A DNA stretch of 64,000 nt from a bacterium (GTDB lineage: Bacteria; Planctomycetota; Planctomycetia; Planctomycetales; Planctomycetaceae). Made by a program: the position numbers and the translations under genes. Each line of letters opens with the position of its first letter. The stretch's first letter is position 1. The stretch is from positions 496,001 through 560,000 of the forward strand of contig WGME01000003.1 of NCBI GenBank assembly GCA_016125225.1. The letters are read 5' to 3'. Below are positions 57,881 through 62,388 of this stretch, piece after piece. The notes beneath the pieces are model-generated. The model did not search any database. It saw only the letters and a program-made list of their open reading frames with translations, and was not told the origin of the DNA.

Positions 57881-58618
57881 ATGACTGTTGGTGAATCGTC
57901 GCCTCGCATCTTGATCACGCTCTGCACTTACAACGAGCGCGAGAACATCACGCGCCTGATTCCGGCCATTCGTGACACCGTTCCCGTTGCCGACCTGCTG
58001 ATTGTCGATGACAACTCTCCCGATGGCACAGCGACATTCGTGCAGAGTTATCAGCAACACGATCCCCGGGTGAAGCTGCTCCTGCGTCATGAAAAGGCGG
58101 GATTAGGGGCGGCCACGCTCGCGGGGTTTGAGACCGGTATCGAACAGGGGTACGACTGGCTGATCAACATGGACGCCGACTTCAGCCATCCGCCGGATGT
58201 CTTACCGCGTCTACTAGCAGCGATGCCCGATGGCGACGTGATCATCGCATCGCGTTACGTGACCGGAGGGGGCATCACCGGTTGGCCCTGGTTCCGACAC
58301 CTGATGAGTCGGGGCATCAACTTTTTCACTTGGTTCTGGCTGGGCATCCGCGCGTGGGATTGTAGTGGGGCGTATCGCGCATACCGGGTGAGCCGACTGC
58401 AGGAGATCGATTTCCAGCGGTTTCGATCGCGCGGCTATGCCTTTCAGGAAGAAATGCTCTATCGCTGCCAGCGAGCCGGCTGCCGGATTCAGGAAATTCC
58501 CTTTGTATTCGTCGACCGGGAGGTGGGCCAGTCGAAAATCAACAGTTGGGAAGTGGTCCGAGCCTTGTGGGACATCGCGGCATTGGGAGTTTCCACGCGT
58601 CTGTTGGGACGGCCTTAG
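57881..58618 (+). CDS. Polyprenol-phosphate mannosyltransferase-like GT2
   Basis: A 245-residue GT2 glycosyltransferase with ILITLCTYNERENI, LLIVDDNSPDGTA and INMDADFSHPPD (DxD), as in dolichyl/polyprenyl-phosphate mannosyl- or glucosyltransferases. The GINFFTWFWLGIRAWDCSGAYRAYR segment is characteristic. There is no C-terminal membrane domain, so it is the short soluble type. Start at 57881 follows AGGAAAG; longer in-frame starts precede the conserved region. It overlaps panB by four bases (convergent). Confidence 0.83.
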   Translation: MTVGESSPRILITLCTYNERENITRLIPAIRDTVPVADLLIVDDNSPDGTATFVQSYQQHDPRVKLLLRHEKAGLGAATLAGFETGIEQGYDWLINMDADFSHPPDVLPRLLAAMPDGDVIIASRYVTGGGITGWPWFRHLMSRGINFFTWFWLGIRAWDCSGAYRAYRVSRLQEIDFQRFRSRGYAFQEEMLYRCQRAGCRIQEIPFVFVDREVGQSKINSWEVVRALWDIAALGVSTRLLGRP

Positions 58619-59415
58619 TCGTGCGAGTGAGCCGCAGTCGGATACTCCCCGCTTCGGACTTCCGTTGCGTACTGTTGTATAGCCGCGATCGCCGTTGTTC
58701 GCAGGTCGGCATACTTCTTGAGAAACTTGGGATGGAAGCCATCCATCAGGCCCAGAAGATCTTGTCCGACCAGCACTTGTCCATCGCAGTGGGGGCCGGC
58801 TCCAATTCCAATTGTCGGAATCGTCAACGCCTGAGTGATGTCCGCAGCAATCTTTTGCGAGACCATTTCGAGCACGATGCCAAAGGCCCCGGCTTGTTCA
58901 GCGGCTTGCGCATCGGCCAATAACAGATCTCGATCGCGCTGAATCTTTCCCATGCTGCCGAGCATGCGGACCGATTGCGGCCTCAATCCCACATGGGCCA
59001 TCACCGGAATGTCGGCATCGGCCAAGGCTTTGATCGTATCGGCCTGTTGCACGCCCCCTTCCAGCTTCACGGCGGCGGCCTCGGTTCGCTTGAGAATCTG
59101 CCCCGCATTCCGCACGGCTTGCCGCGGACTGACGTGATAGCTGAGAAAAGGCAGGTCGACAATCACCATGGCCCGTTGCACACCACGGGTGACCAGTTCG
59201 GCGTGATAAAGCATTTGAGACAGTGTGACCGGCAGTGTGCTGCTGCGGCCTTGGACGACCATCGCGAGCGAGTCACCCACGAGAATGGCATCGACCCCTG
59301 CCGCATCACAGATTCCCGCCCAAAGCCAGTCATAAGCCGTAACGACAGCCAGTTTGCGCCCTTGGGCTTTCGCCGCCATAAACTTGGGAACTGTGACTCG
59401 ACCTTCCACCGCCAT
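58615..59415 (-). CDS. panB: 3-methyl-2-oxobutanoate hydroxymethyltransferase
   Basis: PanB transfers a hydroxymethyl group from methylene-THF to ketoisovalerate, the first step of pantothenate synthesis. The 266-residue protein has TAYDWLWAGICDAAGVDAIL, VGDSLAM, VMAHVGLRPQSV and IPTIGIGAGPHCDGQVLVGQ, with full length. AAGGA lies six bases before the ATG. No other pan gene is nearby; a DUF997/SSF (PanF-like) pair is 52 kb away, with no evident link. Confidence 0.94.
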   Translation of the reverse strand: MAVEGRVTVPKFMAAKAQGRKLAVVTAYDWLWAGICDAAGVDAILVGDSLAMVVQGRSSTLPVTLSQMLYHAELVTRGVQRAMVIVDLPFLSYHVSPRQAVRNAGQILKRTEAAAVKLEGGVQQADTIKALADADIPVMAHVGLRPQSVRMLGSMGKIQRDRDLLLADAQAAEQAGAFGIVLEMVSQKIAADITQALTIPTIGIGAGPHCDGQVLVGQDLLGLMDGFHPKFLKKYADLRTTAIAAIQQYATEVRSGEYPTAAHSHD

Positions 59416-59694
59416 GCGAATTCCTTTTGTTGCAGGCGTCGCGGGACTGGTGCTGAGAGCACACGCTATCGACGCCGGGAAGCATCACAACCGCCGGACA
59501 CAAGAATGTCCAGCAGGGATCGGACGGATTCTGGTCGATGAAGACGATTCGCATTTTGCTACGCTGTTTTTTGTCATCGTGGAGCATTTTGCACCACCGT
59601 GATCGCCAGACTTCCAATGAGCCCATTGCAGCAAAAACCGCATAAACCACGTGTGAGAAATGGCTTACAAAAGAATTGCAAATCATTCGCGATT

Positions 59695-59710
59695 TGGCAC
59701 GAGTCCTGCT
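59695..59710 (+). promoter_or_regulatory. Candidate sigma-54 (-24/-12) promoter
   Basis: TGGCAC, five bases, then CTGCT matches the sigma-54 consensus TGGCAC-N5-TTGCW at all but one position, with GG at -24 and GC at -12 correctly spaced; the flanks (TTGGCACG) also agree. It lies in the 475-base gap between panB and the YkgJ-family gene and points toward a strong terminator 60 bases on. No enhancer site is recognised. The rest of the gap (59416-59694) holds the panB upstream region and nothing else I recognise. Confidence 0.6.
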
Positions 59711-59720
59711 TCTTAGCTTT

Positions 59721-59816
59721 ATCGCCTTGGAAGCAGGCGTTGGCCCGCACTTGCTGATGAGGCAAATTTGGAAGGCGCTTCGAGTTCATCCCGGCTCGAA
59801 GCGCCTTCTTTTTTTT
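59721..59816 (+). ncRNA. Candidate sigma-54-dependent small RNA (~96 nt)
   Basis: Between the predicted -24/-12 promoter and an intrinsic terminator there is no convincing protein-coding frame. A 5' hairpin (CGCCT, 7-base loop, AGGCG; 59723-59739) is followed by an unpaired middle region and then the terminator stem. The predicted start is 12 bases after the GC element; the end is at the T-run. I recognise no known RNA family. It could also be a short leader or a remnant. Confidence 0.5.
59771..59816 (+). terminator. Strong intrinsic terminator in panB-YkgJ gap
   Basis: A perfect 14-bp stem (59771-59784 with 59795-59808), 10-base loop, followed by eight T on the plus strand. No plus-strand gene precedes it, since panB and the YkgJ-family gene are both on the minus strand. 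That is why an RNA gene is proposed upstream of it. Confidence 0.9.
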
Positions 59817-59889: not shown

Positions 59890-60594
59890 TCAGGCAGCGC
59901 GACTGCGTGTGGCTTCGCTGAATTTGAGAATCGCTGGCAACGGCTCTTCGCATTCCTGAGCAGCGGTCTCCGGGATGACGCGATTCTGATAAACCAGCCG
60001 GAGAAAATCGGGCCAGACGCTCCAGCTTTGCGGCCGCCGATTCCAGGACGCTGCGACCTGCCGAAAGAATTTCATCTCAAAGTGAATCAGCACAAGGTCC
60101 TGAACCGCTGCGACGGGTTCCACATCCGCGACATTCCAGGGAGTGGAGCATAAGCCATAGGCGGGATGCGGGTCACTGGGTCGGCCATGCTCCGGAATGC
60201 CGTGCAATTCGGCCAGCATCCCCGTCTCGCTGAGTTTCGTCGGGAAAATACGGCAGACCAGAGGCCGCTGACCATAAATGCCACACTGGGCCGTCCCCAA
60301 AGGCCGGTCTGGTGTGGGAGGCTGCTCAACCAGAAAATGGCAGCGGGTGACATTGCGAAATGTCGCGCTTACCTCGGGCTTGAGGCAGATGGTGTAAGGC
60401 AGACCGGGCTGATCCTCAAAGTAAAAATGCGGTGCCGTTTCACAAGCGATCATGCCATTGGGGTCTTCCCAGCGATGGATAAAACTCTCCATCGGTTGCC
60501 GGAGTTGATGTTCCATCTGTATCAGATCGGCACCGGTCACGGGCACAGCAAAGGCCCGGCAACAGCCTGAATGACATCCTTGGCAGGGGCTCAT
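59890..60594 (-). CDS. YkgJ-family Cys-cluster protein
   Basis: A 234-residue protein of the YkgJ/CxxCxxxCC family: an N-terminal PCQGCHSGCC cluster, CHFL, CGIYGQRPLVCRIFP and the typical tail region. These proteins are thought to bind a metal or Fe-S cluster; the role is not established. Cytosolic. Confidence 0.87.
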   Translation of the reverse strand: MSPCQGCHSGCCRAFAVPVTGADLIQMEHQLRQPMESFIHRWEDPNGMIACETAPHFYFEDQPGLPYTICLKPEVSATFRNVTRCHFLVEQPPTPDRPLGTAQCGIYGQRPLVCRIFPTKLSETGMLAELHGIPEHGRPSDPHPAYGLCSTPWNVADVEPVAAVQDLVLIHFEMKFFRQVAASWNRRPQSWSVWPDFLRLVYQNRVIPETAAQECEEPLPAILKFSEATRSRAA

Positions 60595-61901: not shown

Positions 61902-62303
61902 ATGATTCGTGCATTTCTGTCCGTGGCAGCCGTCGCCGTGACGCTGCTGTTGGCTGCAGCGGAACCCGCTGTGGCTGGTTCTTGTGGTGGCTGCGCAACA
62001 GTCGCCCCGGCCTGCGGTGGCTGCGCACAGGAAGTTTCCTGCTGCAAGCCGAAGCGAGTGAAGTGCAAGCGCGTTAAGGTCCGCAAGACCTGCTGCGAAG
62101 CACCAGCCCCGACCTGCTGCGCTCCCGCCCCGGCTCCGACTTGCTGTGCTCCGGCCCCGGCCCCCAGCTGCTGCGCTCCCGCGCCGACCTGCTGTGCTCC
62201 GGCTCCGAGCTGCAGCGCCCCGGCTGCTGCCGCTCCGGCAGAATCACCGGCTCCGTCGACCGCTCCGGCTCCCCCGACCGAAGACGCTCCTCCCAAGGCC
62301 TAA
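61902..62303 (+). CDS. Exported Cys/Pro/Ala-rich repeat protein
   Basis: A 133-residue protein with a signal peptide (cut near AVAGS), then GSCGGCATVAPACGGCAQ and CCKPKRVKCKRVKVRKTCC, followed by a repeated TCCAPAPAP / SCCAPAP unit (nt ~62110-62230, five variants). An excellent AGGAGGGG site precedes the ATG. Disulfide-rich, Pro-rich exported proteins of this type occur in planctomycete envelopes; no function is recognised. A strong terminator follows. Confidence 0.8.
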   Translation: MIRAFLSVAAVAVTLLLAAAEPAVAGSCGGCATVAPACGGCAQEVSCCKPKRVKCKRVKVRKTCCEAPAPTCCAPAPAPTCCAPAPAPSCCAPAPTCCAPAPSCSAPAAAAPAESPAPSTAPAPPTEDAPPKA

Positions 62304-62346
62304 TGGCTTGGGCGCAGAAGCCCTCGGCATCTGCAGCGATTTCACG

Positions 62347-62388
62347 AACAGCCTCGGTATCTGACAGAGATACCGAGGCTGTTTTTAT
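62347..62388 (+). terminator. Intrinsic terminator of the Cys-rich protein gene
   Basis: A perfect 16-bp stem (62347-62362 with 62368-62383) with a 5-base loop (GACAG), followed by TTTATTTT. It ends the Cys-rich protein transcript, 44 bases after the stop. The 270 bases after it, to the next start at 62661, hold nothing recognised. Confidence 0.9.

Follow-up and report, generated by a model that had tools for sequence, protein, structure and literature searches.

A candidate sigma-54-driven small RNA with a near-invariant loop in a family of planctomycetes

The Qrr small RNAs (sRNAs) of Vibrio (LuxO) are sigma-54-driven, carry a conserved seed and work with Hfq. In Pseudomonas and Azotobacter, CrcZ, CrcX and CrcY have an RpoN promoter and an NtrC-family activator, CbrB, and CrcZ-type RNAs sequester Hfq–Crc, as set out in those passages of the literature that deal with them (PMC8657755). 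GlmY of E. coli is described, in the corresponding passages of another source, as having a sigma-54 promoter that needs the enhancer-binding protein QseF/GlrR and as acting as a decoy for RapZ (PMC7073468). The Rhodopirellula-1 motif (Weinberg 2010) appears in a table as a candidate RNA motif from Planctomycetes, present also in Proteobacteria and without an Rfam number (PMC2864571); it was compared with the RNA considered here by that table description only. None of the literature matches listed, most subscription papers being outside their scope, describes a sigma-54-driven sRNA in planctomycetes.

Here, we analyze a predicted sRNA in a 64,000-nucleotide stretch of planctomycete DNA, the whole of which we call the window. 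Like CrcZ, as far as the passages cited portray it, the RNA would have an RpoN-type promoter and a predicted activator, and it resembles GlmY, within the same bounds, as an sRNA with a sigma-54 promoter and an enhancer-binding protein, again predicted. In contrast to Qrr and CrcZ, which represent the sRNA class that has Hfq as its partner, Hfq (PF17209) was found in none of 40 genomes, the RNA's own included, whereas five control genomes were positive. The RNA also differs from Qrr, CrcZ and GlmY in lacking an Rfam match at cut-off: the whole window gave none at the gathering score, with ctRNA_pGA1 (20.9 bits of 45) and FuFi-1 (13.1 of 59.6) below threshold, and the matches that overlap the RNA at two other loci, ctRNA_p42d (22.7 of 50, L010) and ncS54 (21.5 of 43, L007), were likewise below threshold. 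The RNA may thus be placed as a putative new family of a known kind, the sigma-54-driven sRNAs exemplified by CrcZ and GlmY, in bacteria in which Hfq was not detected.

The locus and the predicted RNA

An earlier note on this DNA had proposed a sigma-54-type sRNA on the plus strand of a gap whose two flanking genes lie on the minus strand. Both neighbors do so, and the features of the locus are as follows.

58615-59415, minus strand: panB (PF02548), the divergent neighbor, which is context and not part of the RNA
59545-59565, no strand: distal enhancer-like site CGATTCGCATTTTGCTACGCT, 10.5 bits, 150 bp before the box and 33 bp from the proximal site
59578-59598, no strand: proximal enhancer-like palindrome CGTGGAGCATTTTGCACCACC with its core TGGAGCATTTTGCACCA at 59580-59596, 16.0 bits, 117 bp before the box
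59695-59709, plus strand: predicted sigma-54 -24/-12 promoter TGGCACGAGTCCTGC, GG-N10-GC spacing, one departure from TGGCACG-N4-TTGC
~59721-59816, plus strand: predicted sRNA transcript of ~96 nt, its start inferred from the box and its end from the terminator
59724-59763, plus strand: covarying hairpin with an internal loop
59737-59751, plus strand: near-invariant GCGTTGGCCCGCACT, apical loop and flanks, apex YGGCCC
59771-59816, plus strand: intrinsic terminator, arms 59771-59784 and 59795-59808, eight T at 59809-59816
59890-60594, minus strand: CxxCxxCC/YkgJ-type gene (PF03692)

The near-consensus -24/-12 element of the earlier note, with correct spacing and a single mismatch, is present as described. 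At the departing position, T is found in 11% of 75 family promoters, and we attach little weight to the departure because the position is unconserved across them. The 5′ end of the predicted transcript was placed ~12 nt past the C of the -12 element. At the other end, the perfect 14-bp terminator with eight T that the note had reported on the plus strand was recovered; on the minus strand it lacks a following T run and is therefore unlike a terminator of the YkgJ-type gene. A second strong terminator-like hairpin in the window, a stem of 17 pairs whose tail is rich in T, lies at 62346-62384, after an open reading frame at 61902-62303.

The 96-nt sequence folds into two hairpins with an energy of −48.0 kcal/mol, compared with −30.1 ± 3.7 for shuffled sequences (z = −4.85). 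Taken alone, the first, upstream hairpin is unremarkable in energy (z = −1.5), so the case for its reality rests on covariation. In a set of 18 sequences (A1), 83.0% of the cells of the stem are paired, against 38–52% when the stem is slid, and 10 of the 15 pairs show changes on both sides; the covariation score of 0.414 compares with 0.221 for shuffles, none of 500 of which scored as high. Among 52 further sequences, many of which share genera with A1 and one of which (L075), a match in coding sequence, does not come from the family, 74.9% of the cells are paired, against 35–46% when slid.

This hairpin presents the near-invariant GCGUUGGCCCGCACU. The apical loop and its flanks are identical in all 18 sequences of A1, which have 17 identical bases, GCGTTGGCCCGCACTTG, in common, A1 having been assembled by permitting at most three mismatches to the conserved core (L019, with one mismatch and no box, was left out). 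GTTGGCCCGC is present in 75 of 75 model matches with a promoter box (see below). Near-invariance covers the loop and the 3′ arm, and the 5′ arm is variable. Since three variant copies (L006, L124, and L125) keep the YGGCCC apex, we mark this apex as the likely working part of the predicted RNA.

Conservation of the RNA, its promoter and its enhancer-like sites

A blastn search with 191 bases revealed a short conserved core in relatives. A covariance model of the hairpin only (R1), blind to promoter and terminator, matched 110 of the 170 genomes of the window's family (f1) at E ≤ 0.1, in 46 of 58 genera, with up to 18 of these 110 genomes having supplied the model's own sequences; 99 of the 110 also match at E ≤ 1e-3. 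The remaining 60 family genomes, which include the single-contig genomes G009 and G066, are negative. In 294 genomes sampled from the phylum, R1 gave 33 matches, 14 in the family and 19 elsewhere (best E 2.3e-4); the latter number is about that expected by chance because an E limit of 0.1 over ~270 genomes yields about as many. In 297 genomes of the class, 58 of 60 matches at E ≤ 0.01 fell within the family and two outside it (1e-3 and 4e-3). No convincing match outside the family was thus found in these samples of 294 and 297 genomes, and on these match counts the predicted RNA is a family-level character within the sampled phylum and class genomes. Sixteen candidate matches outside the family were set aside: two (L073 and L077) turned out to be family genomes with a box, and among the other 14 only L081 has a box, by a loose test. 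Three of 13 named panB loci carry the RNA, under record titles of Planctomycetaceae or Planctomyces.

The RNA gene is single-copy in most genomes that carry it. Two or three tandem RNA genes, each with its own box, were seen at L092, L124, L125, and L126, the third copy in L124 and L125 having the variant loop GCGTCGGCCCACT. In G120, extra copies of the loop (L116, 4151-4206; L117, 4053-4105) sit in strong hairpins with T runs, with another hairpin before them and without an enhancer or a sigma-54 box of the expected type; they may be relatives of the RNA in permuted order. In G119, L108 (4049-4104) and L127 (3981-4035) have strong hairpins whose loop is identical or almost so, with no box and no clear T run. 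At L010, the RNA gene is followed, ~115 bases on, by a 6S RNA (1704-1908; Rfam RF00013, 53.5 bits).

Counting a box at 8 or more of 11 matches, we found a sigma-54 box upstream of 76 of 84 R1 matches, a number that includes three duplicates and a spurious box at L107 that overlaps the hairpin itself, compared with 2.5% of random 62-base windows; these, like the random windows used for terminator and enhancer, were drawn from the collected loci, which include RNA genes. The box lies 41–49 bases from the loop in 74 of 75 cases. Eight of the 84 matches are without a box (nine with L107), among them L061 and L068 of genus g28; these two keep hairpin and terminator, have no recognizable box and still show palindrome-like sequence upstream. 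For the promoter-motif and terminator counts, the duplicates L022, L027, and L037 (equal to L089, L050, and L023) were dropped. Among 83 matches, 75 have the box, counting the spurious one of L107, and 62 a strict terminator, which random windows show in 2.5% of cases; several of those failing the strict definition have visible imperfect stems (e.g., L062–L069). The earlier note had staked its proposal beforehand on promoter and terminator both being kept in relatives, and 59 of the 83 matches have both, whereas only 1 of 1500 random windows of the collected loci has box and terminator at these positions. A TGCGC often follows the T run, past the expected end of the RNA (e.g., at L003, L007, L014, and L015), and is absent in the window.

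Upstream of 75 family promoters we found a shared palindrome of approximately TGTTGCA-N3-TGCAACA, usually ~118 and often ~150 bp before the box. The motif was learned from these 75 upstream regions, the window's included and matches with a box below 8 left out, so that enhancer scores within the family are not independent of it. At the expected place, it exceeds 11 bits in 50 of the 75 regions, in 1.35% of random windows and in none of the 75 regions when reversed. The strict pattern TGNNGCAWWWTGCNNCA has a single occurrence in the whole 6.35-Mb genome, at this locus, and the reversed control pattern has none. An exact, stricter form, GTTGCAWWWTGCAAC, occurs in 6 of 59 genomes: at this RNA in G024, at a second RNA in G043 (see below), and elsewhere in G051, G027, G001, and G021, with no sigma-54 box downstream in these last four. 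When both strands of 1.19 Mb of DNA were scanned for the enhancer together with a box, 66 places emerged, or 43 after removal of overlapping loci, of which 35 are this core, 5 the second sRNA and 3 the variant copies L006, L124, and L125, compared with none for the reversed control; the scanned DNA was collected around these RNAs and relatives, and the count is not a genome-wide rate.

RpoN is encoded in 37 of 40 genomes, including the window's own (G000:C26), and the three misses are incomplete genomes. The layout is that expected of a sigma-54 promoter with its own activator. No enhancer-binding protein was spotted among the recurring neighbor clusters, which were named by eye; Pfam was run on four window proteins and one DUF1501 protein.

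The sequence comparisons thus lend support to the sRNA candidate of the earlier note through conservation of promoter and terminator, a covarying stem, an upstream palindrome and RpoN in the genome; covariation and a conserved -24/-12 box, which it had wanted sought in related genomes, were both found there. New relative to the note are the covarying hairpin at 59724-59763, the pair of enhancer-like sites (59545-59565 and 59578-59598) and the family-wide conservation. From promoter, hairpin, terminator, enhancer motif and conservation, all established by comparison, we infer transcription and an activator: we are highly confident that the locus is an sRNA gene with a sigma-54 promoter, and it seems very likely that an enhancer-bound activator would control it.

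A second RNA behind a similar promoter

A search with the enhancer palindrome led to G043, a genome of family f3, in which a sigma-54 box lies 159 bp downstream of the palindrome and is followed by a different RNA. This second RNA has two hairpins, each showing GCGAGUCC, with the second hairpin inside the terminator, the stem of which covaries. By sequence, it was found in 14 of 61 genomes of f3 at E < 1e-3. At the second-RNA loci (L138 and L173 of G043, L174–L189, and L200), both loops and a box of at least 8 are present in 18 of 20 loci inspected; L193 and L196, among the 20, are without the two loops, and L188, at a contig end, was left out of set A3. The enhancer motif scores above 8 bits at 15 of the 18 loci and above 11 bits at 8, compared with 5.9% and 1.35% of random windows, and these scores in f3 are independent of the motif except at G043, which was found through it.

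A model of the second RNA (R2) had matches in 56 of the 297 class genomes, of which 51 belong to f3, 5 to f97 and none to f1, and the R1-positive and R2-positive class genomes do not overlap. Rfam gave no match at the second RNA in six loci. Unexpectedly, another planctomycete family has a second putative sRNA, unrelated to the first, behind a similar enhancer and promoter. A tentative reading, for which the chances seem a little short of even, is that of a dedicated sigma-54 and enhancer slot with an Hfq-independent sRNA as its output, filled by the YGGCCC-loop RNA in f1 and by the two-hairpin GCGAGUCC RNA in f3 and f97, the switch being conserved and the RNA replaced. With this second RNA, the questions of how RNA regulation works where no Hfq is found and of which signal the sigma-54 activator reads would extend to the whole phylum.

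Mode of action and competing readings

In the mechanism that we propose, an NtrC-type enhancer-binding activator would bind the TGTTGCA-N3-TGCAACA palindromes ~120–150 bp upstream, upon which sigma-54 RNA polymerase would transcribe an RNA of ~96 nt ending at the strong intrinsic terminator. The 5′ hairpin would display the almost invariant C-rich loop with its YGGCCC apex, and the loop would act in trans without Hfq, most likely by pairing with G-rich stretches of target mRNAs. Because comparison revealed no Hfq match in any of the 40 genomes, the RNA should act without this protein. For trans action and base-pairing, both of which we infer, the strength of the case differs: action in trans through the loop is likely, and whether the loop base-pairs rather than binds a protein is evenly poised. 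As a whole, an activator-controlled, sigma-54-dependent, Hfq-independent, trans-acting sRNA, with either pairing or protein binding allowed as its last step, is the reading toward which we lean. Mostly single-copy, and having a loop that hardly varies and an enhancer of its own, such an RNA would offer a direct route to RNA regulation where no Hfq is found, and also a route to the signal that its sigma-54 activator reads. The recurrence of RNA, switch and stop signal in many relatives makes the proposal directly testable.

Possible targets were sought as perfect 12-mer complements of the loop. These are not clearly enriched: across 37 family genomes, 127 were counted versus 76 for the control, 27 of these genomes containing the RNA gene itself and thereby adding a self-match, and 22 genomes from outside the family gave 90 versus 57; no conserved target emerged. 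Self-matches aside, the window's own genome has three such sites, two of which coincide with the 5′ ends of DUF1501 genes (L203, ~1243, a perfect complement of 13 bases; L204, ~1263 on the minus strand, of 12 bases). Of the 79 DUF1501 matches in this genome, 52 were examined. Over all 52 regions, two have a complement of at least 9 bases, compared with 0.61 for shuffled loops (highest 4). The 50 regions without those two have a mean longest complement of 5.94, against 5.84 for shuffled loops, with none reaching at least 9, and a slightly better duplex energy (−20.3 versus −19.0 ± 0.8, the shuffles being over all 52). A DUF1501 regulon was not accepted, the remaining 50 regions being without an excess in length, and the two sites stay as candidates. 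Eight further sites in G001 and G002 were also rejected; only one gene recurs among them, in two sister genomes (L166 and L209), and its site is located well inside the frame.

The lack of a clear enrichment of complements would suit the main rival, in which the loop binds and titrates a protein in the fashion of CrcZ or GlmY instead of pairing with mRNA. Near-invariance over loop and 3′ arm despite a variable 5′ arm points the same way, as do the tandem copies in some genomes (L092 and L124–L126) and the second sRNA behind a similar promoter, which shows its own loop twice. Most copies of the present RNA, however, have one such loop only, and there is no candidate for the protein; Hfq, the partner of CrcZ, was not found in 40 genomes. 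We consider such a decoy possible but rather unlikely.

Much less probable is a leader or attenuator acting in cis on the downstream gene. A tblastn search placed panB close to the RNA gene at 37 of 82 family loci, three of them duplicates; at 36 of these 37 it is upstream and divergent, and at L059 it is downstream and shares the RNA's strand. When called frames were clustered, panB ranked among the three closest genes on a side at 36 of 82 loci. At the other loci, the neighbors vary, and the downstream gene differs between loci and genera. Where a downstream gene was called, at 80 loci, it shares the strand of the RNA in 60, for example in clusters c1 and c2, as a leader would have it. Yet it runs the other way in the window and at 20 of these loci, so that the RNA cannot as a rule be a leader; the gene that follows varies from genus to genus, and 62 of 83 matches have a strict terminator at the end of the RNA. 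We rejected a leader on the counts of opposite-strand genes and strict terminators, though the RNA may have such a role in some genomes.

That the segment is a small protein-coding gene, as an 81-codon open frame running across it from a TTG in the window's list of open reading frames might suggest, or a chance pairing of promoter and terminator, is scarcely credible: the coding reading was rejected on a 17-base core without third-position variation in the 18 sequences of A1 and a stem that varies in compensating fashion, and a chance pair would hardly recur in 46 of 58 genera when box and terminator coincide in 1 of 1500 random windows.
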